Shown: positions 44,723 through 61,631 of the stretch, piece after piece
Numbering within the stretch: position 1 is the stretch's first letter
Layout of the letters: each line of letters begins with the position of its first letter
From: Coriobacterium glomerans PW2
Lineage (GTDB): Bacteria > Actinomycetota > Coriobacteriia > Coriobacteriales > Coriobacteriaceae
Direction of reading: 5' to 3'
Assembly (NCBI RefSeq): GCF_000195315.1
Contig: NC_015389.1
Span: 1,860,001-1,924,000, forward strand
DNA: 64,000 nucleotides
Notes under the pieces: generated by a model
What the model saw: only the letters and a program-made list of their open reading frames with translations
Database searches by the model: none
Told to the model about the DNA's origin: nothing
Made by a program: the position numbers and the translations under genes

Positions 44723-45682
44723 TCAGCCGTGCACGCGGGTGCCCGACAGACCCGCGATCGTCTCGGGTGCCTTGTCGAGCGCGCCGATGATGCAGGTGCG
44801 CCCCTTGCGCGAGCGAGCGAACTTGATCGCCGATCGGACCTTGGGTTCCATGGAACCTTTGCCGAACTGGCCCTCGTCGGCCATTATCTCGGCCTCATCA
44901 GCCGAGACATCCTTCAGATCGATCTGGTTGGGTTGCCCGAAGTTCACAGCCACGTGCTCGACTGCCGTGAGCAGGAACAAAACGTCCGCGTCGCAGTCCT
45001 CGGCGAGCAGCTCGCCGCCCATGTCCTTGTCGATGACCGCTGCCACGCCCTTGTAGGCGCCCTTGTCGGCGTAATCGCGCACGACCGGGATCCCGCCGCC
45101 ACCGCAGGCGATGACGATGAACGAATTGTCGAGCAGATGCAGAATCGAATCGGCCTCGACGATCTTCTTGGGCTCGGGACTCGCGACGACGCGACGCCAG
45201 CCGCGACCTGAGTCTTCGATGAAGACCATTTCCGGATGATCGGCGCGCTGCGCATCGGCGACCTCTTTCGTGAGAAACGGTCCGATCGGCTTGGAGGGAT
45301 GCTGAAAGCTCGGATCGTCCGGATCCACCTCGATCTGGGTGATGACGGTCGCCACGTGCCAGCGCTTGTAGGCCTTGTGCAGCGCCACCCCGATCGCCTG
45401 CTGGAGCTGGTAGCCGATGTAGCCCTGACTCATGGCACCGCACTCCGGCAGATCCATCGGCGGGACCTTCGGATCGGTCGCGGTGGCGAACGCATTCTGA
45501 ATCATGCCGACCTGCGGGCCGTTCCCATGGGTGATGATGATCTCATTGCCCTGCAAGATGAGTTCGAGAAGCGTCGGCGCTGCAGCGCGCACGCGCGCCA
45601 TCTGCTCCTCCGGCGTCTCACCGAGCGCGTTTCCCCCGAGTGCGACGACGATGCGCTCGCGCCTCCCATATGATCGTGACAT
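44723..45682 (-). CDS. allK: Carbamate kinase
   Basis: About 319 aa amino-acid-kinase fold: VVALGGNALGE, ITHGNGPQVGMI, IACGGGGIPVV and VIDKDMGGELLAEDC. It makes ATP from carbamoyl phosphate and ADP, releasing ammonia and CO2. Last of the minus-strand allantoin operon, directly after the oxamate carbamoyltransferase genes and ureidoglycolate dehydrogenase, so it plays the role of E. coli AllK (YbcF) rather than arginine-deiminase ArcC. The sequence alone does not separate the two. Confidence 0.92.
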   Translation of the reverse strand: MSRSYGRRERIVVALGGNALGETPEEQMARVRAAAPTLLELILQGNEIIITHGNGPQVGMIQNAFATATDPKVPPMDLPECGAMSQGYIGYQLQQAIGVALHKAYKRWHVATVITQIEVDPDDPSFQHPSKPIGPFLTKEVADAQRADHPEMVFIEDSGRGWRRVVASPEPKKIVEADSILHLLDNSFIVIACGGGGIPVVRDYADKGAYKGVAAVIDKDMGGELLAEDCDADVLFLLTAVEHVAVNFGQPNQIDLKDVSADEAEIMADEGQFGKGSMEPKVRSAIKFARSRKGRTCIIGALDKAPETIAGLSGTRVHG

Positions 45683-45770
45683 AGCAATCCCTTTCTCAGA
45701 CAGGGCAGACCGTTCGGCCTTGCTCTTCGGCGGCCGAGGACGCCCGCGGGTGCCCCGGCTCATGAATAGC

Positions 45771-46823
45771 TCACTCAGCGAAACGGTTCTTGTGGTCCCA
45801 GCTGTTGATATAGAGCTTGTCGGATTTCAGATACTCGTAGATGTCATCGACGACTTCGATGCCACCGGCGGCGTCGGCTTTGGCCTTGCGCAGAAGCGCC
45901 CGCTCGCCCGGGTAGTAGACCTTGTCCGATCCGGGGCCCGGCTTGACGGCGCCCAGCTCATCCAGAACTTCGGACATATGCGTCTTGAACTCCTGCAGCC
46001 CGCAGAAGCGCGACGGGTCGATGCAGATGTGGATGTGACCGAGGTTGCGGCCCTCGGACAGATCGTGGTACATCGAGGAGACGTGCTTGCCGGCAGGCAC
46101 GCCCAGCAGCACGCCCGACAGAATGTCCACGACCATCATGAGGCCGTAGCCCTTGGGGCCCGCGATCGCGACCAGAGCGTTGACCTTATGCGGATCGGTC
46201 ACCGGGCAGCCATCCTTGTCGACGGCCCATGTGTCGGGTATCGAGCGTCCCGCGCTTCTGGCATCGAGGATCTTGCCCCACGCCTGCACGGTGGTCGCCA
46301 TGTCGAAGTTGACGAAACGCTCATCTGCGGTCGGCGCGCCGAAGGCGATGGGGTTCGTACCGTAGAACGGCTCGGCGCCGCCAAAGGGTATGACCATGGG
46401 ATCGGACTGGCACATCGTGAGCAGGCACAGATCGTTTTTCGCGGCCATCTCGGTATAGTAGCCAAGCGCACCGGTGTGAGACACGCGCCGGACGCCGACG
46501 ATGCCGATGCCGTTCTCCTTGGCCAGATCCATGGCGTACTCGAGTCCCTTGATGGCGAAAGGGTATCCGCAGCCGTTGTCGCCGTCGAGCATGCCCGAGC
46601 ACGGCCCGGTCTGCTCCCAGGTCCAGTTGGGATCGACGGTGATGCCGCCTTTGGAGATGCGCTCGCTATAGTACTCGACACGCACCTCGCCGTGGCTGTG
46701 CAGACCGCGCTCGGAAGCCCACGTGAGCACCTCCGCGGTCTTGTCGGCATCATCTGCGTGCAGGCCGGCCGCCATGAACTTGTTCTTCATCAGTTCCTTC
46801 AGTTCTTCTCGTGCGAGCAGCAT
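45771..46823 (-). CDS. allD: Ureidoglycolate dehydrogenase
   Basis: 350 aa of the malate/L-lactate dehydrogenase-like (type 2) family: GLHSHGEVRVEYY, VSHTGALGYYTE and FGAPTADERFVNFDMATT. AllD oxidises ureidoglycolate to oxalurate with NAD. AAGGAG precedes the ATG. The allantoin genes around it decide the assignment over other members of the family. Eleven bases separate it from allH. Confidence 0.93.
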   Translation of the reverse strand: MLLAREELKELMKNKFMAAGLHADDADKTAEVLTWASERGLHSHGEVRVEYYSERISKGGITVDPNWTWEQTGPCSGMLDGDNGCGYPFAIKGLEYAMDLAKENGIGIVGVRRVSHTGALGYYTEMAAKNDLCLLTMCQSDPMVIPFGGAEPFYGTNPIAFGAPTADERFVNFDMATTVQAWGKILDARSAGRSIPDTWAVDKDGCPVTDPHKVNALVAIAGPKGYGLMMVVDILSGVLLGVPAGKHVSSMYHDLSEGRNLGHIHICIDPSRFCGLQEFKTHMSEVLDELGAVKPGPGSDKVYYPGERALLRKAKADAAGGIEVVDDIYEYLKSDKLYINSWDHKNRFAE

Positions 46824-46833
46824 GATCGTCTCC

Positions 46834-47832
46834 TTATGCTAGGTGGTATATCCCTGAACGCGTACACATCCTATTCATGCGGGTCCCTCTTACGACGCGA
46901 AATGCGCCCGGACTCGCTATAGAACCATCTGAGGTGCTCGCACGGCACCCGCTGTGAGTGCGCTGCGGTTTTGTCGAAAGCAGCCGATCGACATCCAGAC
47001 CCCAGCCGAGCGCGAAACCGAGCAGGCTATCGCTGCCCGAGGTATGGCCAACCGCGCGAATCGACTTGATTAATCCGCCGAAGCGCTCCGTCTGAGCGGC
47101 AGCCACGGCTCGCCCGAGATCGATGTAGTTCTCATTGGCCGCCCCCGCGATCAGCGCGCGCAGATAGGCGCGGCTCACCGGGGTCGTCCGATCGAGTCCG
47201 GATCGACTGATCGCATCGATCAGCCGCGTCTCGCGCCGTTGGAGCCAGCGCGCGACACCCAAGCCCATCAGCACGTCATCGCCGCTCGGCGTAAGGCCCG
47301 CACCGCGCCCGAGCAGAAACTCCACTCCACGGGCGATTCCAGCGGAACTTGAATCCGGATCAGCCAGACGATGCAGATGCTCTCGCAGTCGCGCGTCACG
47401 CGCGATCCCGATCGTCGTGGCTAGATCGAGTTCATCCAAACACCGAATCAGCGCCGTGCGGGCTTCATCATCGATGGCGGCGCTTCTGATGCTCGCAAGC
47501 GACAGATCAACCGGCTCGAACCCGCTGAGATCGATCTCGGTCACGCCGAGCCGATCGTAGACGCGCACCACGCGGTCGCGCAGCGTCACGAGATCACCCG
47601 GACGAGCTCTCGCGCGCAAGACGTTTCGCTCGCGTGCGGACACGGCAGCACCCGTGCAGGACAGCGCCCTGTCCGTGCTCCCCATGTAGAGGAGCTCCTC
47701 GCCGACCGAGATGTTGAATCCGGAGGAGTACGCGCTGAGCACGCTGCCGCTGCCGCGGGCGGGCAGTCGATCGAGCAGCTGGGAGCACACCCGCGCGCGA
47801 TCTCCCACGATTCTGGTTGTCAGATCGGCCAC
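46834..47832 (-). CDS. allH: DUF2877 protein, AllH-type subunit
   Basis: 332 aa. DUF2877 features: SGFNISVGEELLYMGS, then GRGAGLTPSGDDVLMGL and GHTSGSDSLLGFALG. In E. coli AllF, AllG and AllH together form oxamate carbamoyltransferase. The start is a GTG with GGGAG at the right spacing, 13 nt after the AllF-AllG fusion stop. The C-terminal 60 residues are polar and longer than usual. Confidence 0.9.
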   Translation of the reverse strand: MADLTTRIVGDRARVCSQLLDRLPARGSGSVLSAYSSGFNISVGEELLYMGSTDRALSCTGAAVSARERNVLRARARPGDLVTLRDRVVRVYDRLGVTEIDLSGFEPVDLSLASIRSAAIDDEARTALIRCLDELDLATTIGIARDARLREHLHRLADPDSSSAGIARGVEFLLGRGAGLTPSGDDVLMGLGVARWLQRRETRLIDAISRSGLDRTTPVSRAYLRALIAGAANENYIDLGRAVAAAQTERFGGLIKSIRAVGHTSGSDSLLGFALGWGLDVDRLLSTKPQRTHSGCRASTSDGSIASPGAFRVVRGTRMNRMCTRSGIYHLA

Positions 47833-47845
47833 CGGATGCTCCCGC

Positions 47846-50800
47846 CTACTCGATACCGAGGGAGGCGCAGTACGCCTCGAGGGCGCGCTCGAAGCAGCCC
47901 AGCGGCGCGCGCACGGTTCCGGCGCCGATCTGGCCGACGCCCGCCTGCTTGTGCGCGATGCCCGTGTTGATGAGCGGTGTGATACCGGTGGCGACCACCT
48001 CTCTGATGTCGATTCCCAGACACGTCCCCTTGAAATCCCAAGTCGGAATCGTCCAAGCGGGATTATGCGTGACGCACAGGCGCTCCATCTCGTCGGAGAT
48101 CGCAAGCGCATCCTCGAATCCGCCGGCGCCGACGAAACGCGTCACACCCGGAGCGGCGACCATGGCCATCCCGCCGACGCCGATGGTCTCAGCGATCGCG
48201 GAATCGCCGAAATCGGGGTTCGCGTCCTCAGGTGAGAATCCGGTGAAGTACAGGCCATCAGGCGTGTTGACCGGTGCGAGAAACCACTGGTCTCCCATAC
48301 CCGATATGCGAATCGCGAAATCGCGCCCGTTCCTGCACATCGTCGTCACGATGCAGCCCTTTTGAACCTTGCGCTCGTAGTCGACGATCGACTTGCCCAT
48401 AGCCATCATGACGTTCAAAAAGAACTGATCGGTATCGGCGAGGAAGTGCATGACCTGCTCTTTTTTCCTTTTTTCGACGTCGATCTCGGTGATAAGAGGA
48501 CCGACCTCCTTGAGCAGGCACAGAGATGCCGCTATGTTGCGCTGATGGAACTCGTCGCCCATCGTGATAGCGCGCGCGACGAGCACATTCAGGTTGATGC
48601 CCTCTTCGCTGTGGCGGATCGCCTGGGAGAGCACCGGACCGAGTACGTCTCGCATCCAACGCAGGCGGTCGATGACCTCCTCGGAGTACGCACCGAATCG
48701 AAGAACCTTGCCGATGCCCTCGTTCAGAGTGCAGTAGCCCACGGTGCCGTCGACCCTGTTCTCGACGACGAGCACCGGCATGTTCTGGGTCGTGATGCCC
48801 CCCATCGGCCCGACCGCGTGCACGTCATGACACGGCATGAACGTGACCTCGCCGCTTCTCAGCAGCTTCACCGCCTCATCCTCGCTGTCTGCCCATTCCT
48901 CGAACAGCACGGCTCCGATGCAGGAGCCCTGCATGGGGTTTGTCATGCTCTCGAAATCTATCGGGGGACCTGCATGCAAGATCACCTTGCCGTTGATCTC
49001 GGGAATAACGGACTTTGCGGGTACGACGTCGACGAGGAACGGCTGCGATTGCTTGAATCTCTCGATGATGCGATCGTTCTCATCGTCGATCTCCTCGTGC
49101 TTGCGAAGCTCGCTGAGAAGATGGATCATGCGCTTGTTGCCGCCGGCCATGGGCTTCCAGGTGTATTGGACCGACGAGCCGCCGAACGCGCGAACCGAAT
49201 CGTTGAAGCTCTCGATGCCGACGTTTATGATGCGCGGCTTGGAATCCAGTAGCTCCATGAGGGCGTCGGTGGGCTCGGGCAACGCGGAGTCGTCTTTGAT
49301 CTTGTATTCCACCGTGCCCTTCTCTGGCTCCGGACATGAGATCCCCTTGAGAGCGAGCGCCAAACGGGTCGCCTGCGCGTTCGTCGCCTCCATGAGGGCC
49401 CCCGCTTCGCTCAGCACCTTGAGGCAGCGATCGTAATCCTGCGGATCGCTGCGGGTGCCCACGACCGTACCGACGAAGAACAGCTCGCGCCCTTCGCGCT
49501 TTGCCGCATCAAGGCACTCCGTGATGACCGGGGCGAGGGATCCGGCCATATCCGGATGCGCGCCGTAGCCCAACACGCAGTCGAACAGGATGACACCGGT
49601 TTGCTTTCTGCCAGCGTAGTCGCGCATCATCTCGATGCGCACATCCGGATCGATCATGGGATGCGGACGTCCCTGCGTGTAGACGTCGTCGCCGAGATCG
49701 ATCACGTCATATCCCTCGTGCTGGAGCACGAAGCCCCGCTTCTTGATCAGACCCCCTAGATCGAGCGCCTCTGAGACCATCATCGCCGCCTCCGCTGCGA
49801 GCGTGCCTCCGGAGTAGAGACCCACGACCGTGCGATCTCGACCGAGCGTCCGGGTGACATCATGGGCGAGCGGCTCCACGTAGCATGGTTTGACATCGTG
49901 GTCCGTTGCGAGATCCACGGCGATCCGCGCCGTCTCCTCGAGGGTGTGCGCCAGATGCACCCTGCCCTCGTGCGCCGTCGGTCGCTCACCGAGAAATATG
50001 GCGACGACTGGTTTCGTCACCTTTTGCAGCATATCGAGCACCTCATCGCGAACGCTCGGTGCCGGCGGCTTCGAGATGATGCACAAGACGTCGGTCGCGG
50101 CATGCGCGTCGAGAGCGGCGATGGCGTCCTTGACGGTGATGGCGTCGACATCCTCGCTGAGATCGCGCCCGCCTGTGCCGATCGCATGGACGCAGCCCTG
50201 GCCGAGCCTGTCGATGATGCAGGAGACCTCTTGTATGCCGGTACCGGACGCACCGATGATGCCGATGTTGCCCGGTCGGATGACATTCGTGAATGCGATG
50301 GGAATGCTCGAGATGATGCCCGTACCGCAATCCGGACCCATGAGCAGCAGGCCCTTCTCGTGGGCTTTCTTTTTCAGACGCACCTCATCCTCGATCGCGA
50401 TGTTATCGGTGAACGAGAAGACGTTGAGCCCCAGATCGAGAGCGCGCTCCAACTCGGGCGCGGCGTACTCGCCCGGTATGGAGAAGACTGCGAGATTCGC
50501 ATCGGGAAGCTCCTCGATCGCCTCTTCCCATGATTCCACGGTCTTGTTCGCCTGACCCTTGCTCTTCACTGACAGATCAGCCAGAAATGAATCGGCCTCC
50601 TTCAAGACATCATCAACGACGGACTCGTCATCGGTGTCCACGACGACGACCATGTCGCCGGGCTCTGCGGCATCCGCCTCATCTGTCAGCAGGCCCGATT
50701 GCTTGAATATGCCCTTGTTCGCATCGGTACCCATCATGATCTGGCTTTTGGTCACTCCATCAAGAGCGTTGACCTTGTTCGAGAGCAACATCAGATTGAT

Positions 50801-50848
50801 CGAGTCCTGATAGGAGTTCTTCTTTACCACGGTGTAGAGCATCGTCAT
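47846..50848 (-). CDS. AllF-AllG fusion: FdrA + DUF1116, oxamate carbamoyltransferase
   Basis: A single 1000-residue chain. About 1-530 is FdrA/AllF, a succinyl-CoA-synthetase-like fold with GNIGIIGASGTGIQE at about 200 and VVAIFLGERPTAHEG; about 560-1000 is the DUF1116 (AllG/YlbE) domain with INVGIESFNDSVRAFGGS, PMGGITTQNMPV and IGVGGMAMVAAPGV. In E. coli these are separate genes. With AllH it would turn oxalurate plus phosphate into oxamate plus carbamoyl phosphate. The frame is clean, with no sign of assembly fusion. Two ATGs two codons apart are possible starts (50848 or 50842). First gene of its operon, divergent from allC. Confidence 0.93.
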   Translation of the reverse strand: MTMLYTVVKKNSYQDSINLMLLSNKVNALDGVTKSQIMMGTDANKGIFKQSGLLTDEADAAEPGDMVVVVDTDDESVVDDVLKEADSFLADLSVKSKGQANKTVESWEEAIEELPDANLAVFSIPGEYAAPELERALDLGLNVFSFTDNIAIEDEVRLKKKAHEKGLLLMGPDCGTGIISSIPIAFTNVIRPGNIGIIGASGTGIQEVSCIIDRLGQGCVHAIGTGGRDLSEDVDAITVKDAIAALDAHAATDVLCIISKPPAPSVRDEVLDMLQKVTKPVVAIFLGERPTAHEGRVHLAHTLEETARIAVDLATDHDVKPCYVEPLAHDVTRTLGRDRTVVGLYSGGTLAAEAAMMVSEALDLGGLIKKRGFVLQHEGYDVIDLGDDVYTQGRPHPMIDPDVRIEMMRDYAGRKQTGVILFDCVLGYGAHPDMAGSLAPVITECLDAAKREGRELFFVGTVVGTRSDPQDYDRCLKVLSEAGALMEATNAQATRLALALKGISCPEPEKGTVEYKIKDDSALPEPTDALMELLDSKPRIINVGIESFNDSVRAFGGSSVQYTWKPMAGGNKRMIHLLSELRKHEEIDDENDRIIERFKQSQPFLVDVVPAKSVIPEINGKVILHAGPPIDFESMTNPMQGSCIGAVLFEEWADSEDEAVKLLRSGEVTFMPCHDVHAVGPMGGITTQNMPVLVVENRVDGTVGYCTLNEGIGKVLRFGAYSEEVIDRLRWMRDVLGPVLSQAIRHSEEGINLNVLVARAITMGDEFHQRNIAASLCLLKEVGPLITEIDVEKRKKEQVMHFLADTDQFFLNVMMAMGKSIVDYERKVQKGCIVTTMCRNGRDFAIRISGMGDQWFLAPVNTPDGLYFTGFSPEDANPDFGDSAIAETIGVGGMAMVAAPGVTRFVGAGGFEDALAISDEMERLCVTHNPAWTIPTWDFKGTCLGIDIREVVATGITPLINTGIAHKQAGVGQIGAGTVRAPLGCFERALEAYCASLGIE

Positions 50849-50952: not shown

Positions 50953-51141
50953 GGATAATAATAACAAGGTGTATCTAGCCAATGTGGATATTGTCGCTGT
51001 GTGTAGGCCTGCGTAGTCTTATGGGTAACGTCAGTCGCAAGCGAACGGCTTCTCACCTCCAGGTGACGATGCGCCGGTCCGGGCCCCGCAACCGAAGTGA
51101 GGTCGCAGTCGCAGACAACATCCCTAAAGGAGATGGCACAC

Positions 51142-52368
51142 ATGAGCGTGACGGAAAACGAAATCGTGGAAAATGTCGAATGGCTTGCTAAAAACGGTGC
51201 CGACCCTGCAGGAGGGATGACCAGACTGTTGTTCACCAAGGAGTGGCTCGCCGCGCAGCTCGCTTTGAAGCAGCGTTTCGAAGAGGCCGGAATGGTCGCT
51301 TCCTTTGACGAGGTCGGCAACCTGTATGGCACCTATTCGGGCACCGACGGCAGCGAGGACATCATCATGACCGGTTCGCATGTGGACACGGTCATCCAAG
51401 GCGGCAAGTACGATGGCGCGCTCGGTGTCATCGGCGGCTTTCTGGCCGTCAAGCACCTGGTTGAGGAATACGGTCGGCCGAAGAAGAATCTCACCGTCAT
51501 ATCCATGGCTGAGGAGGAGGGAAGCCGCTTCCCATTCGTGTTCTGGGGCAGCAAGAATCTCGTCGGTAGCGTGCCCGCCTCCGAGATCGCGGACGTGGTC
51601 GACCCGGAGGGCATCTCGTTTGCCGATGCGATGCGAGACTGCGGCTTCTCTTTACGGACCTCACCGACGTCTGCCGCCGATCATATGAAGGCGTTCGTCG
51701 AACTGCATATCGAGCAGGGCAACACCCTTGAGATGGAAGACATCCCCGTGGGAGTGGTCAACGCCATCGTGGGCCAGCGGCGCTACAACATCACGCTCAA
51801 AGGCGAGGCCAACCATGCCGGAACGACGCGCATGTGCTATCGTCACGATGTCATCCAGGTCTTCGCCGAGATCGTGAACCGATCCCTTGGCAAGGCTGTC
51901 GACGAAGGGGATCCGCTCGTGCTCACCTTCGGTCACATCGAAGTCGTACCCAACACCGTCAACGTCGTCCCCGGAGACGCGATGTTCACGATGGATTGCC
52001 GTCACACCGATCGAGCCGCGCTCGTGCGCTTCACCGAGCAGATCGAGGCCGACATGGCCGAGATCGCCGCCGAGCACGGCGTCGAGATCGAAATCGACCG
52101 TTGGATGGATGCGGACCCCGTCCCCATGGATCCGGCTATCGTCAAATGCGTCGAGAGCGCCTGCAAGGAGGTAGGGGTGCGCTATCGCGTCATGCACTCC
52201 GGAGCCGGTCATGACTCTCAGATCATCGCTCCGCACATCCCGACCGGCATGGTCTTCGTGAGAAGCGTGAAAGGCATCAGCCATAGCCCCGAGGAGTACA
52301 CCGAGCCGGCCGACCTCAAAGAGGGAATCCGCACCCTGGGCGCCGCATTGCACGCGCTCGCCTATTAG
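51142..52368 (+). CDS. allC: Allantoate amidohydrolase
   Basis: About 408 aa M20-type metallohydrolase. Metal ligands: His80 in SHVDTV, Asp91 in KYDGALG, Glu125/126 in AEEEGSRF, His189 in ELHIEQG, and a late HSPEEYTEP. Converts allantoate to ureidoglycine, ammonia and CO2. GGAG lies 9 nt before the chosen ATG; an ATG directly after the GGAG is less likely. First of the plus-strand all operon. Related N-carbamoyl amidases have the same motifs; context decides. Confidence 0.94.
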   Translation: MSVTENEIVENVEWLAKNGADPAGGMTRLLFTKEWLAAQLALKQRFEEAGMVASFDEVGNLYGTYSGTDGSEDIIMTGSHVDTVIQGGKYDGALGVIGGFLAVKHLVEEYGRPKKNLTVISMAEEEGSRFPFVFWGSKNLVGSVPASEIADVVDPEGISFADAMRDCGFSLRTSPTSAADHMKAFVELHIEQGNTLEMEDIPVGVVNAIVGQRRYNITLKGEANHAGTTRMCYRHDVIQVFAEIVNRSLGKAVDEGDPLVLTFGHIEVVPNTVNVVPGDAMFTMDCRHTDRAALVRFTEQIEADMAEIAAEHGVEIEIDRWMDADPVPMDPAIVKCVESACKEVGVRYRVMHSGAGHDSQIIAPHIPTGMVFVRSVKGISHSPEEYTEPADLKEGIRTLGAALHALAY

Positions 52369-52401
52369 CATCCATCCGCAATGCAGCTAAGGAGCGAAAT
52401 C

Positions 52402-53895
52402 GTGGGCACCGATGGGAAGGATTGCCGGATCTCCGAGGAGGAGCTGGCAAGGTATCGTGATCGCGGCTACAACGACGATCTGCTGCCGAAGTCCGCCGAA
52501 AAGCGCAATATGAGCTCTATCAACTACTTCACGCTGTGGATGGGCTCGGTTCACAACATCCCGAATTACGCAGCGGTCGGCGGTTTCTTGTTTTTGGGGC
52601 TGTCCCCTGTGAACGTTATGATCGCACTCGTCATATCCGCCCTGCTCGTATCTCTGTTCATGGCGTCGAACGGTGAAGCGGGATCGCGCTACGGCATCCC
52701 GTTCGCCATGCACCTGAGATCCACCTACGGAAATCTCGGAGCGAAAGCGCCCGGCATCATTCGAGGTGTCATCGTGGCCATCGCCTGGTTCGGCCTTCAG
52801 AACTACACGGGATCGCTCGCGCTCACGATTATCATCAGCAAGGTGTGGCCGGGCTTCCTTTCTCTCGGCGGAGGGGCGACCATACTGGGCATCAGCGTTC
52901 CCGGTCTCATCTCGTTCACGATCTTCTGGCTGCTGAACGTCGCGATCGGCCTCGGCGGGGGCGGCATCCTGAATAAGTTCACCGGCATACTCTCGCCTGT
53001 CATCTACATCGTCATCTTCGGCATGACCGCGTGGGCCATCTGGGCGGCCGGCGGGCTCGCCCCCATCTTCGCCTACAGCCAAGGAGAAGCCGGCTCTGTC
53101 AATCCGGCGTTCATCTACCTCATGATATTCAGCTCGGTGCTCGCGGTCTGGGCCGCACCCGGGGCGAGCGTTTCGGATTTCACGCAGAATGCCGAATCGA
53201 CCAGATCTCAGCAGATCGGTCAGTCGGCGGGTCTCATCGTGGGTTATATGATCTTCGCGTTCTGCAGCGTCGTCATATTGCTCGGATCATCTATCGCCTT
53301 CAATGTGCAGGAGTGGGACATCACGAAGCTGATAAACCGGTGGGACAGCCTGCCGGCTGTCATCTTCGCCACGCTGCTGTTCCTGTTCACGACGATCTCC
53401 ACCAACGCAACCGGCAACATCATCCCGGCTGCCTACCAGCTCTCGGCGCTGTTCCCGAAGCGCGTCACCTATAAGAAGGGTGTCATCATCGCGAGCATCG
53501 TGAGCTTTGCGATCATGCCGTGGAACCTCATGGCGAACTCTGCGAGCATCTACGAGTTCCTGAACTTCGTGGGCGCGTTTCTGGGTCCGGTCGCAGGCGT
53601 CATGATCGCGCACTATTACTTCGTCACGAGGCGAACCATCGACTTGAATGCGCTGTATATGGACGTCTCGCGCAAAGATTCGACCAACCCCTATGCCGGC
53701 ATCAGGTGGGAGGCGATCTTCGCCACCCTCGCCGGTCTCGTGATATCCTATGCGGGCAAAATCATCCCGGCGCTCAAGTCGCTGACCGATATCTCCTGGA
53801 TCGTGGGATTCGCCTCGGCGCTCATCATCTATACCATCATCATGAAGGTCGCCGCCCGACGAGCGGGCCAGTCACGGTTTTCGGAGACCCGATGA
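52402..53895 (+). CDS. NCS1-family allantoin permease
   Basis: About 497 aa, 12 membrane segments. NCS1 hallmarks: FTLWMGSVHNIPNYAAVGGF, ASNGEAGSRYGIPF, and AWFGLQNYTGSLAL. AAGGAG is 7 nt before a GTG at 52402, so that start is preferred to an ATG 7 codons upstream. Lies between allC and allB, so allantoin is the probable substrate. Confidence 0.92.
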   Translation: MGTDGKDCRISEEELARYRDRGYNDDLLPKSAEKRNMSSINYFTLWMGSVHNIPNYAAVGGFLFLGLSPVNVMIALVISALLVSLFMASNGEAGSRYGIPFAMHLRSTYGNLGAKAPGIIRGVIVAIAWFGLQNYTGSLALTIIISKVWPGFLSLGGGATILGISVPGLISFTIFWLLNVAIGLGGGGILNKFTGILSPVIYIVIFGMTAWAIWAAGGLAPIFAYSQGEAGSVNPAFIYLMIFSSVLAVWAAPGASVSDFTQNAESTRSQQIGQSAGLIVGYMIFAFCSVVILLGSSIAFNVQEWDITKLINRWDSLPAVIFATLLFLFTTISTNATGNIIPAAYQLSALFPKRVTYKKGVIIASIVSFAIMPWNLMANSASIYEFLNFVGAFLGPVAGVMIAHYYFVTRRTIDLNALYMDVSRKDSTNPYAGIRWEAIFATLAGLVISYAGKIIPALKSLTDISWIVGFASALIIYTIIMKVAARRAGQSRFSETR

Positions 53896-53992
53896 GGGCG
53901 GACCGGTGCGCTGGCGCACCGGTCTCGACGCGAAGCGGATCTTTGAAAGGGATCGGAATACAGCAGACCGGCAACACAGAGGAGGAACGGAC

Positions 53993-55357
53993 ATGAGCAA
54001 TGATCTCGTTATCAAAGGCGGCCTTGTCATACTTGAAGGCGGGGAGATGACCTGCGACATCGCCATCAAAGACGGCAGGATCTCAGGCATCGGCGACGAC
54101 CTTGAGGGAACCAAGACCATCGACGCGACCGGGCTCGTCGTGAGCCCCGGCATGATCGACGGTCATGCGCACATCACCGATCCGGGCGGCGGCATCCGCG
54201 ACGGCTGGGAGGGCTACTCCACCGGCACCGCAGCCTGCGCCAAGGGAGGCATCACCTCGATCGTCGAGATGCCGCTGAATCAGATCCCGGCGACGACCGA
54301 CGGCGAGCGTCTGAAGATCAAGGAGGCGGCCGGCAGCGGCAAGCTGCGCGTCGATGTCGCCTCGCTCGGCGGGCTCACCCCGTACAACCTCGACGGCGGC
54401 ATCCAAGAGCTCGATCAGGGCGGCGTGGTCGGCTACAAGGCGTTTCTGGCCACCTGCGGCGACCCGAACATCGAGGGCGACTTCCAAAACGTCGACGACT
54501 ACTCCTTGTACGAGGGCATGCGCCAGATCGCCGAGACCGGCAAGGTTCTGGACCTCCACTGCGAAAACGCCGCCATCACCGATCGGCTCGGCGAGATCGC
54601 CAAGGAGCAGGGCAAAAAGACGCTGGCGGACTACGTCGCGACCCGACCGGTCTTCACCGAGCTCGAGGCTGTGCGCCGTGCGATCTTCTTCGCCAAGCTC
54701 ACGGGCTGCCGCGTGAACATCTGCCACTGCACCTGCAAGGAGGCCGTGGACGAGGTCGCTCGCGCGCGGGCGGAGGGCTTCGACATCACCTGCGAGACCT
54801 GCCCGCACTATCTCTACTTCACAACCGACGACCTCGACGCCATCGGCAACATCACGAAATGCTCTCCTCCCATCCGAGATGCGGCGCAGCGAGACGCGCT
54901 GTGGGAGCGCGTGGAGAACGGACTCATCAGCTTCGTCGTCTCCGACCACTCGCCGTGCACGCCCGATCTCAAGGCCGGCGACAACGCGTTCACGGCATGG
55001 GGCGGCATCGCAGGAATCCAGAACTGCGTCGATGTCATGTTCGATGAGATGGTCCAGAAGCGTCATCTGCCGATGACGCTGTTCGCCAAGGTCATGTCCA
55101 CCAATGTCGCGGATCGCTTCGGCCTCACGGAAAAGGGCCGCATCGAGGTCGGCCGCGACGCGGATCTCGTGCTCATCGAGCCGAACGCGCCCTACACGCT
55201 CAAGGCGGAGGATCTCGAGTACAAAAACAAGGTCAGCCCCTATGTCGGCAAGACGATCGGTGCCCAGGTCGCCGCGACGATCCTGCGCGGCGAAACGACC
55301 TACAGCAGGAAGCGGGGGCTCGCCGGCGACTGCCCAGGGACGTTCCTCAAGAAGTGA
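53993..55357 (+). CDS. allB: Allantoinase
   Basis: 454 aa cyclic amidohydrolase. Metal centre: His58 and His60 in DGHAHITDP, carboxylated Lys149 in VGYKAF, His189, His245 and Asp318 in VSDHSPC. Opens the allantoin ring to give allantoate. AGAGGAGGAAC precedes the ATG. Family length normal. Dihydropyrimidinases share the fold, but the locus makes allantoinase clear. Confidence 0.95.
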   Translation: MSNDLVIKGGLVILEGGEMTCDIAIKDGRISGIGDDLEGTKTIDATGLVVSPGMIDGHAHITDPGGGIRDGWEGYSTGTAACAKGGITSIVEMPLNQIPATTDGERLKIKEAAGSGKLRVDVASLGGLTPYNLDGGIQELDQGGVVGYKAFLATCGDPNIEGDFQNVDDYSLYEGMRQIAETGKVLDLHCENAAITDRLGEIAKEQGKKTLADYVATRPVFTELEAVRRAIFFAKLTGCRVNICHCTCKEAVDEVARARAEGFDITCETCPHYLYFTTDDLDAIGNITKCSPPIRDAAQRDALWERVENGLISFVVSDHSPCTPDLKAGDNAFTAWGGIAGIQNCVDVMFDEMVQKRHLPMTLFAKVMSTNVADRFGLTEKGRIEVGRDADLVLIEPNAPYTLKAEDLEYKNKVSPYVGKTIGAQVAATILRGETTYSRKRGLAGDCPGTFLKK

Positions 55358-58129: not shown

Positions 58130-58921
58130 ATGGGCTACATCAACAACGTGACCGGCTATCGCGGCGACATCCTCGAGAACCGCTCGATCATCAGAAAGAA
58201 CAACTTCGCGCTCATAGAGCCCGATGGCTTGGTGAAAAACGTCATTCCCGGATTCGAGGACTGCGACATCACGATCCTGGGGTCGCCCAAGCTCGGCGCG
58301 ACCTTCGTGGACTACGTGATCACCATCAACGAGCATGGAAAGAATCAGCAGGGCTGGGGGGCTGCCGGCATCGAGTCGATCCTCTACCTGTTCGACGGCG
58401 AGCTCGAGGTCGAAAACGAGGACGAGACCGCGACCATCACGGCGGGCGGCTACATCTACACGCGACCCGGCGGTGTCCTTCGGTTCATGAACTCCTCGGG
58501 CAACGTCGCTCACGGCTTCATGTACAAGCGTCGCTACCAGGCGATCCAGGGAGCTGAGCCGCACTCCGTCGTCGGCAACGTCAATGATATCGATTGGACC
58601 GCCTATGAGGGGATGGAAGACGTGCTCGTGAAGGATCTGCTGCCCTCTGCGACCGACATGGGCTTCGACATGAACATCCACATCCTGTCCTTCAAGCCCG
58701 GTGCCTACCATGGCTACGTCGAGACGCACTACCAGGAGCATGGAGCGTTCATCTACTCAGGCGAGGGCATGTACAATCTGGACAACGAGTGGATGCCGGT
58801 GAAGAAGGGCGACTACATCTTCATGGCGTCCTATTGCCTGCAGGCGGGCTACGGCGTGGGCAGAAGCGACGACTTCGCCTATATCTACTCGAAGGACTGC
58901 AATCGCGACGTCGAGCTGTAG
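58130..58921 (+). CDS. allE: (S)-ureidoglycine aminohydrolase
   Basis: 263 aa bicupin. Characteristic residues: EPDGLVKNVIPGFEDC, ILYLFDGELEVE in the first cupin and KPGAYHGYVETHYQEHGAFI in the second, which carries the Mn ligands (His, Glu, His). Releases ammonia from ureidoglycine to form ureidoglycolate. AAGGAG precedes the ATG. Confidence 0.95.
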   Translation: MGYINNVTGYRGDILENRSIIRKNNFALIEPDGLVKNVIPGFEDCDITILGSPKLGATFVDYVITINEHGKNQQGWGAAGIESILYLFDGELEVENEDETATITAGGYIYTRPGGVLRFMNSSGNVAHGFMYKRRYQAIQGAEPHSVVGNVNDIDWTAYEGMEDVLVKDLLPSATDMGFDMNIHILSFKPGAYHGYVETHYQEHGAFIYSGEGMYNLDNEWMPVKKGDYIFMASYCLQAGYGVGRSDDFAYIYSKDCNRDVEL

Positions 58922-59009: not shown

Positions 59010-60608
59010 ATGAATGTATCCGAGGTTCTCAGACTCCCCTCCTTCGCGGGAGCTCTTCTCATAGCCGGTACCGAGGGAGCCTCATGCGAAGTCAGCAGCG
59101 CAATGATACTCGAGGCCGTGGATATCGAAGCCTGGGGCCGCGAAGGGCAGCTCATCCTCACGAGCTTCTACGCGTTCAAGGGGCTTTCGGACCGCGAGCT
59201 TGACGAGTTCTTCGCCAAGGCCAGCGCGATCGGCATCGCCGGCATCGTCTTCAAACCCGATCGCCTGCTTGACAGCCCCGGCGAACAGATCATCAGCCGC
59301 TGCGATGAGCTGAAGCTGCCGCTCGTTCAGATTCCCAAGGACACCAAGTACGAGGCCTTGATGCTCGATGTGCTCGGTCGCTTTCTAGAATCGAACCTGA
59401 TCCTGCTGAATCGCTTTTTCGATGTGCACCGACAGACCATGGCACTGGCGCTGAAGTCGCCGACCGTGTTGCAGGTCATAACCGAGCTTCGACGCACGAT
59501 CCATTCGGATATAACGTATCTCGATGCAGCTAAAAACAGTCGAACGACAACATGTCAAGAACTCTCCGAATTCAATTCCCCGCGACTGACCGAGATTGCG
59601 CCGGACCGCTACCGCACGCACCGCTATTACGACGCGGAGCTTCGCTACGCGACGATCCGGCGGCGCGCCACCGCTGTCAGAATCCCGTCTTCGGATGATC
59701 AGATATATTATCTGATCATCCACAGCAAGAGTGAAAGACTGGCACCGCTTGATATCATGGCGGTGGAAAATGTCGTGAGTCTGCTGCAGATGGAAGTGCT
59801 CAAGCAAAACGCGGTGGATCGCAAGCTGTTCTTCCGCAACAACAATCTCGTGCAGGATCTGCTGCTCGATCGCTACGCGAATCGCAGCTATATCGACAAC
59901 GCGCTCGAGATATTGGGGGTCGCCCAGTATCCGTTCTACCAGATGCTGCTCATTCGCATCGATCTCGCCAATCCGTCTGAGGCCGATCGTCGCGAGGATA
60001 TCCTGCTCGCCATACGTCGGCGACTCAAGATGATCTACCCTGATATCGCATACTTCCAAGCGAACGATCGGATCGCGCTTCTCCACAACTTCAAAGGTGA
60101 GCACTCCTGTTTCGACGTGTATGCGATCACCTCGGCGCTCAAAGAGGTCGCCGAGGTGCCCTCGATGCCGAGCTACACGTTCTTCGCCGCGCTGAGTCGC
60201 ACCGGCAACCGTTACGAACTGGGTTCGCTCAACAGAGAGACTATCGATATCCTGCGCTTCTTTGACAGCAATCGCTATCAAAACGCCTGCCTTCGCTACG
60301 AGGACCTAGGGGTGTTCAAGATTCTGATGCAGGCAGGTGATCTGAGCGAGCTCGATCATTTCATCGATCCCAGGGTCGCCGCGCTCCATGCGGCCCGTCC
60401 AGAGCTTTTTCGCACCGCCGTCACGCTGTGTGAGAACAGCTTGAATTACCAGAAGACCGGCCGCGATCTGTTCGTGCACCCCAAAACCATCCGCTACCGC
60501 GTGGATCGTCTGGAGAAGATCTCCGAGCTCGATCTGCGCAACCCCGACGATCGTCTGCAGATCGTCTTGGGCAGCAGGATCTATCATCTCATCGATGCGA
60601 CGGAGTGA
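59010..60608 (+). CDS. PucR-family regulator
   Basis: 532 aa. N-terminal PucR domain (about 8-125; LRLPSFAGALLIAG, GREGQLILTSFYAF), a central region, and the C-terminal HTH_30 (TVTLCENSLN... HPKTIRYRVDRLEKI). Activators of purine-catabolism genes have this layout. Placed after allE in the same direction, so likely controls the two divergent all operons. GGGG precedes the ATG. Confidence 0.94.
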   Translation: MNVSEVLRLPSFAGALLIAGTEGASCEVSSAMILEAVDIEAWGREGQLILTSFYAFKGLSDRELDEFFAKASAIGIAGIVFKPDRLLDSPGEQIISRCDELKLPLVQIPKDTKYEALMLDVLGRFLESNLILLNRFFDVHRQTMALALKSPTVLQVITELRRTIHSDITYLDAAKNSRTTTCQELSEFNSPRLTEIAPDRYRTHRYYDAELRYATIRRRATAVRIPSSDDQIYYLIIHSKSERLAPLDIMAVENVVSLLQMEVLKQNAVDRKLFFRNNNLVQDLLLDRYANRSYIDNALEILGVAQYPFYQMLLIRIDLANPSEADRREDILLAIRRRLKMIYPDIAYFQANDRIALLHNFKGEHSCFDVYAITSALKEVAEVPSMPSYTFFAALSRTGNRYELGSLNRETIDILRFFDSNRYQNACLRYEDLGVFKILMQAGDLSELDHFIDPRVAALHAARPELFRTAVTLCENSLNYQKTGRDLFVHPKTIRYRVDRLEKISELDLRNPDDRLQIVLGSRIYHLIDATE

Positions 60609-60617
60609 GGTCATATC

Positions 60618-61631
60618 TTGTCATGTTTCAGGGATGCGATCGAAGTTGCCGTGCGCATGCGCGCAAGCGGTGAGATCGTGCGCACCGAGATCGGCATGAG
60701 CGTGCACCGGCCCTCCTCCGATCCCGCTCGCGCGAGGCGAGCCGATGTCGACGGGAGCGGATCCCCGGATATGGACACCAGCGGCTCGGGAGTCGCGATC
60801 ATCTATCTGCACGGGGGTGGCCTGCTCTTCGGAAGCCGCGATGACCTGCCACAGGCCTATATCGACCAGATCTTGGCACGCGGACACGCTCTGATCTGCC
60901 TCGACTATCCGCTCGCCCCGCAAACAGCCGCGCCCGATATCATCAGCTCGACCGCGTGCGCGGTCGACGAGCTCGTACGCGAACGTCTCGCCGCGCTCGG
61001 ATGCACCGAGCATGTCTTGTTCGGTCGCTCGGCCGGCGCCTATCTCGCTCTCATGCTCGCGGCACGCGCGCAGCGCCACCGGCCGGGCGCTGCATCGGAG
61101 CGCGATCCCGAATGCTGGCCGGGTCCGCTCGCGGTATGGGATTTCTACGGCTACACCGATCTGCTCGCAGCGTTTACCTGCAAGCCGAACCCGTACTACG
61201 CAGCGATGCCCGCCGTGGACGACGAGTCCGCAGCGCGCATCGCTGCGCACCGCGCAGATGAACCCCTCACCTGCGCTCCGATGGAAAAGCGATTCTCCCT
61301 GTACGTCTACGCGCGTCAGAGCGGTCGCTGGCCGGAGATGGTCGGAGCCGATAGGAGATACGCCGATCGTCTTGGGCTCGCCGAGACCGACATCGCTCGT
61401 TTGCCTCCGCTGTTCATCGCCGCGAGCACAACCGACCGAGACGTTCCCTTCGAGGTCTCCAAGCACCTGAGCCGCGCGGCACCTCACACCGAGCTGCACA
61501 CGGTCTACTACCTCGAGCATGACTTCGACCGAGACCCAGAGCAGTCGGCGGGGCCGCGTGCATACCGCGCCGCCCTTGATTTTCTCGATACGTGCCGATC
61601 TGCGGCCCGGCGGAAACCGCGCGACGGGTAA
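60618..61631 (+). CDS. Alpha/beta hydrolase (HSL/esterase-like)
   Basis: 337 aa. Oxyanion motif YLHGGGLLFGSR, nucleophile elbow FGRSAGAYLAL, acid in STTDRDVPF, base in YLEHDFDRDP: the hormone-sensitive-lipase-like arrangement. No signal peptide. The start is a TTG with GAGTGAGG ahead, 9 nt after the pucR stop. It sits in the allantoin operon; role unknown, with hydrolysis of a ureide or amide intermediate conceivable. Confidence 0.82.
   Translation: MSCFRDAIEVAVRMRASGEIVRTEIGMSVHRPSSDPARARRADVDGSGSPDMDTSGSGVAIIYLHGGGLLFGSRDDLPQAYIDQILARGHALICLDYPLAPQTAAPDIISSTACAVDELVRERLAALGCTEHVLFGRSAGAYLALMLAARAQRHRPGAASERDPECWPGPLAVWDFYGYTDLLAAFTCKPNPYYAAMPAVDDESAARIAAHRADEPLTCAPMEKRFSLYVYARQSGRWPEMVGADRRYADRLGLAETDIARLPPLFIAASTTDRDVPFEVSKHLSRAAPHTELHTVYYLEHDFDRDPEQSAGPRAYRAALDFLDTCRSAARRKPRDG

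Follow-up and report, generated by a model that had tools for sequence, protein, structure and literature searches.

A natural AllF-AllG fusion in the allantoin gene cluster of Coriobacterium glomerans, very probably a one-chain subunit of oxamate carbamoyltransferase

The window that we analysed is the whole 64,000-nucleotide stretch of the Coriobacterium glomerans PW2 genome from 1,860,001 to 1,924,000 of NC_015389.1, and coordinates below refer to it unless another locus is named. On its minus strand, positions 47846 to 50848 form a single open frame of 1000 residues with zero internal stops, against at most 291 open codons when the bases of the gene's 3000 nt are shuffled; it is the sole copy in a one-contig, 2.1-Mb genome that is 99% complete. 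An earlier note on this DNA had described the frame as a fusion of AllF (FdrA) and AllG (DUF1116), and profile searches bear this out, with the two parts present at full length and joined end to end. The NCBIfam FdrA model NF004760 covers residues 3-581 (profile positions 1-554 of 555; 669.5 bits against a cut-off of 433), the Pfam AllG family PF06545 (DUF1116) matches residues 668-883 (E = 2e-92; 309 bits against a cut-off of 27), and residues 7-420 of the 421 in the solved DUF1116 structure 3clq match residues 584-997. Escherichia coli K-12 FdrA aligns to residues 3-582 at 38% identity and YlbE to residues 587-999 at 60% identity, placing the AllF/AllG boundary, relative to E. coli, at residue 582/583. 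The note had proposed re-sequencing at about residues 530-560, which fall not at this boundary but within a module that we call M (residues 534-582; 49103 to 49249, minus strand); split relatives carry M either at the end of FdrA or at the start of the DUF1116 protein. Before M lies the AllF core, which resembles the alpha subunit of succinyl-CoA synthetase (SCS; about residues 3-500; 49349 to 50842, minus strand; CoA_binding PF02629 at 192-287 and Ligase_CoA PF00549 at 344-499), and after it the AllG part (residues 583-1000; 47849 to 49102, minus strand). Translation probably starts at the second ATG (50842), giving 998 residues, rather than at the first (50848), because the purine-rich GGCGGAG has no spacing to the first ATG and a 6-nt spacing to the second, and because the majority of homologues start at the second.

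The genes around the fusion are those of allantoin use. AllH (DUF2877) is encoded separately, as had been stated, 13 nt downstream of the fusion stop (GTG start at 47832; 46834 to 47832, minus strand; PF11392, E = 2e-21, 77 bits against a cut-off of 25), and is followed on the same strand by AllD, ureidoglycolate dehydrogenase (45771 to 46823; TIGR03175, 532 bits, cut-off 496), and a carbamate kinase in the AllK role (44723 to 45763; NF009007, 328 bits, cut-off 266). Divergently, on the plus strand, lie AllC, allantoate deiminase (51097 to 52368; NF006768, 593 bits, cut-off 532), an NCS1 allantoin permease (52381 to 53895; NF008476, 740 bits, cut-off 620), AllB, allantoinase (53984 to 55357; NF005960, 701.5 bits, cut-off 688), and AllE, (S)-ureidoglycine aminohydrolase (58130 to 58921; E = 9e-131 with an HMM made from AllE hits; Cupin_2), with two MFS transporter genes between AllB and AllE, also on the strand opposite to the fusion. 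A PucR-family gene (59010 to 60608, plus strand; PF07905 and PF13556) encodes the likely cluster regulator. Judged by these matches, the window holds the complete predicted gene set for turning allantoin into oxamate, carbamoyl phosphate and ATP. An alpha/beta hydrolase gene (60618 to 61631) adjoins the PucR regulator, as it does in the Enterococcus faecalis cluster (L334:6502-7314), and may have a role on a pathway product.

In E. coli, allFGH (fdrA, ylbE, ylbF; PMC11326118) represent the same three families at full length, in the order F-G-H and clustered with genes for a carbamate kinase and AllD, but AllF and AllG are split by a stop with an in-frame ATG four codons on, whereas the window has one chain. 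E. faecalis WP_002355249.1 (1003 aa; NZ_CP143580.1) is a fusion like that of the window, full length at 65.7% identity and followed, as here, by DUF2877, carbamate kinase and allD genes; its DUF2877 gene overlaps the fusion by 8 nt, in place of the 13-nt gap of the window, and it is annotated from the FdrA half only, under a name, 'acyl-CoA synthetase FdrA', that hides the carbamoyltransferase role. A further E. coli set, yahE/yahF/yahG/yahI, shares adjacent families with the window but is split, with the 48-residue module on YahG and not on YahF. Among Bacillota with split allantoin operons (L294-L298, L330, L332, L333 and others), two tandem Ldh_2-family (AllD-like) genes often precede fdrA.

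The junction between the two parts is short. In 56/56 fused representatives, the profile match of F is separated from that of G by 3-7 residues, and in the majority of split relatives the F gene stops near this junction and G begins a few codons later with a ribosome site and an ATG. Within the fusion, residues 575-621 contain no in-frame ATG, GTG or TTG from which a free AllG could start, and a candidate internal start, an ATG seven bases past GAGGAG, proved to be out of frame. Structure prediction gave an AlphaFold2 one-chain model of AllFG, built from 58 fused sequences, with a mean pLDDT of 85.6, a pTM of 0.76 and an ordered junction, in which the predicted C-terminal helix of AllF (572-581) passes through a four-residue turn into the first helix of AllG (586-600; block-mean pLDDT 85-91). 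Module M is modelled as beta-alpha-beta-alpha (pLDDT about 80-94). The AllG part of the model matches 3clq over 417 residues (Z 54.5, rmsd 1.9) and the AllF part resembles succinyl-CoA synthetase alpha (Z about 18-19); the AllF subdomains are placed unlike those of crystal 3dmy (rmsd 19 Å over 427 residues), and the domain arrangement in the one-chain model is only moderately certain. The folds of the two parts were solved as separate proteins (3clq from E. faecalis V583, 3dmy being E. coli FdrA). A Foldseek/VIA structure search returned these two parts and acyl-CoA synthetases, with no solved complex or fused protein, and no solved relative of AllH was found by sequence.

A profile built on fusion residues 534-582 located module M C-terminally on F where allantoin-type pairs are split (FM/G; 78 entries), N-terminally on the DUF1116 protein of paralogues (F/MG; 33 entries) and internally in fused chains (FMG; 108 entries). 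A few paralogue loci encode it as a separate small frame. E. coli K-12 (L032, L336) has both split layouts, with M on FdrA (512-555, 45.3 bits) and on YahG (11-53, 30.9 bits), while YahF lacks it. The order F-M-G is constant across layouts and only the cut site differs; to judge from these sequences, the AllF/AllG gene border has shifted during evolution.

A contig search with the fusion as query returned 80 loci, mostly one frame by ORF check. Since such a search favours fused forms, we added species sampling, and the hunt for other FdrA-DUF1116 fusions that the note had suggested yielded 108 fused entries in all, reduced to 56 representatives. Allantoin-type pairs in the species samples were fused in 40 cases and split in 50, a tally made by hand that excludes centre genomes and repeats and in which all fused and most split pairs were ORF-checked. 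Coriobacteriia contributed 14 fused genomes and no split pair of this type (the window's own excluded), the order of Enterococcus 24 fused and 32 split, the class of Enterococcus 10 further split pairs, the order of Proteus one fused and eight split, and the phylum of Enterococcus at large one fused; the Chloroflexota sample had no allantoin-type pair except in the centre genome. One genome, G1185, has fused and split forms together. In the samples from Bacillota and Chloroflexota, paralogue pairs of the yahF/yahG type (40-50% identity) outnumber allantoin-type pairs; those checked are all split. The fused form is no single-genome oddity: it is common among gut Coriobacteria, enterococci, lactobacilli and others. 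It comes close to being the commonest form without quite being so, and the note's presentation of it as something special is weakened, since it is the sole allantoin-type form found in Coriobacteriia and makes up near half of all allantoin-type pairs sampled. The enzyme is already known and the fused gene is already in RefSeq as 'fdrA'; the open-licence literature searched yielded no paper describing an AllF-AllG fusion, the switch of module M, or the AllH-carbamate kinase fusions considered below. Apparent triple F-H-G or giant fusions (open frames of 1035-1757 aa) were rejected, since ORFs called from stop to stop show separate genes at these places. The fused genes of Lentilactobacillus hilgardii (L092) and Companilactobacillus nodensis (L098) are interrupted by a frame change, through decay or assembly error. 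In Olsenella sp. SIG37, a second AllG (L041:14557-15984; 476-aa frame, 63% identity) stands by itself, with no adjoining AllF, about 3.5 kb past the fused gene.

We built trees from concatenated F and G of 122 representatives with FastTree and IQ-TREE. Allantoin-type pairs, including E. coli fdrA/ylbE and the window, form one 100-starred clade of 89 rows, and 51/56 fused representatives, again with the window, group together in a single starred clade whose members come from Coriobacteriia, Lactobacillales, Bacillaceae, Clostridia, Fusobacteriota and Chloroflexota. The others, four Lachnospiraceae-type representatives and one Paenibacillus, form two further groups. With FastTree and IQ-TREE alike, the fused/split label requires three changes, and a single origin of all fused forms is rejected by an AU test (p-AU 0.0034) in which the group was defined by label and which was done after the first tree was viewed. 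The polarity of change follows the costs assumed: with equal costs the allantoin clade starts from a split ancestor (FM/G), and with costs favouring fission it starts from a fused one. A locus drawn from the order of Proteus (L304, genome G1675) carries a Lachnospiraceae-type fused gene, by transfer or on a mis-binned contig.

It might be argued that the single frame is an artefact, two genes having been run together by a frameshift error or an overlooked stop. Indeed, the E. coli genes share a frame and merely TAA-GGG-GTT-CCC separates the last AllF codon from the AllG ATG, so that one base change could merge a gene pair of this type. However, about 100 other genomes have the collinear fusion too, at 56-75% identity, the E. 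faecalis fusion is one CDS in RefSeq, the genome studied here is one contig, and its junction is coding and conserved: across residues 540-625, the comparison with Collinsella phocaeensis shows 73% amino-acid identity, no gap at the junction, and substitutions at codon positions 1/2/3 of 19/13/28, and the codon-position GC pattern continues across the AllF-AllG junction. Of a missed stop or frameshift at the linker, which the note had named as refuting the fusion, there is no sign; such an error is excluded as far as sequence allows, and we regard an artefact as extremely improbable. The naturally fused AllFG chain is very probably a subunit of oxamate carbamoyltransferase (OXTCase; EC 2.1.3.5), an activity assigned by analogy with E. 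coli allFGH. Full oxamate production in E. coli requires allF, allG and allH, all three, and purified AllF-AllG-AllH is active, with assembly of the holoenzyme with AllH left open (PMC11326118). The papers that we could search contain no activity measurement for any fused protein. Streptococcus allantoicus was reportedly the source organism of OXTCase in the 1960s.

The OTCace and OTCace_N domains of classical transcarbamylases (ATCase/OTCase/YgeW) are missing from the fusion, whose Pfam hits are AllG, Ligase_CoA and CoA_binding alone, and the last two are shared with ADP-forming acyl-CoA synthetases/succinyl-CoA synthetase. With the SCS-alpha fold of AllF, they agree with the 'acyl-CoA synthetase' annotation, under which FdrA would be a CoA ligase, as proposed for E. 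coli (PMC3364942), and the fusion would activate oxamate with CoA. We consider this very unlikely, since AllF is needed for E. coli OXTCase activity (PMC11326118), the scanned neighbour genes include no ATP-grasp partner, and H293 and H301, found in fused forms, have no His counterpart in E. coli FdrA (VARDENVWFASSL versus HEGRVHLAHTL). The match of these residues to the position of the SCS catalytic His is only presumed, and an SCS-type phosphohistidine does not look conserved, E. coli FdrA having no His there. The fold of AllF suggests a part in handling phosphate or carbamoyl phosphate, and AllG is a likely site of catalysis, given invariant runs such as GDEFHQRN, NEGIG and NTGIA. Somewhat less remote, but still unlikely, is that the fused protein is a paralogue for another ureido substrate, as those of the yahEFG or triuret/biuret-linked clusters may be. 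AllFG-like pairs at 40-50% identity are common in other gene contexts, including comammox and AOA clusters (PMC12625717), and many enterococcal fused loci have no allC or allD nearby. The window fusion, however, groups with E. coli fdrA/ylbE on the 100-starred branch, apart from the paralogues, and lies within a complete allantoin cluster. AllH is near the fusion in 63/66 fused loci, with AllD in 22/66 and AllC in 8/66 (8-kb flanks, many of which end at contig ends); given how sparse AllD and AllC are, part of the fused enzymes may use an imported or other ureido substrate.

As an oxamate carbamoyltransferase, AllFG with AllH would split oxalurate by phosphorolysis into oxamate and carbamoyl phosphate. 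The downstream carbamate kinase would convert the latter, together with ADP, to ATP, CO2 and ammonia, and these are the final steps of anaerobic allantoin use. The fusion probably holds AllF and AllG in the positions that they occupy in the split enzyme, and by its construction it yields the two in equal amounts. The earlier suggestion of direct AllF:AllG contact gains support from repeated fusion (p-AU 0.0034), the 3-7 residue junction and the side-switching module. The accompanying claim, that fusion fixes a 1:1 stoichiometry, stands only for how much of each part this lineage makes; it does not extend to AllH, the ratio of which is not fixed by fusion. Similar band intensities of E. coli AllF and AllG on gels (PMC11326118) agree with an equal supply by fusion. 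We infer, rather than observe, contact through module M and any advantage of the fusion.

Whichever layout is older, M is expected to lie where AllF and AllG meet, and it marks their likely interface. For M to jump directly, one gene would have to lose it and the other to gain it, whereas a fused intermediate requires two simple steps. We tentatively suggest, as a history that is possible though somewhat doubtful, that the border slid over the 48-residue module through fused intermediates (F/MG to FMG to FM/G), such that the window enzyme keeps or repeats the intermediate, E. coli allF/allG derive from a fused ancestor, and M is the AllF:AllG docking piece. OXTCase, encoded by three genes, was identified recently and differs from the known transcarbamylases. 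As one chain whose junction is ordered and linkerless, AllFG lends itself to purification and structural studies, with one subunit ratio fewer to account for.

Fusion in this pathway extends to another pair. Six genomes that keep F and G apart encode AllH and carbamate kinase as a single frame (588-602 residues where complete; L317:7079-8842, L318:7079-8848 and L329:2108-3913 on the minus strand, with L214, L215 and L216 clipped by locus ends), and PF11392 and PF00696 both score above cut-off in the three complete cases. Neighbouring pathway partners thus fuse in differing pairs, and the AllH-carbamate kinase fusions hint at a direct hand-over of labile carbamoyl phosphate.
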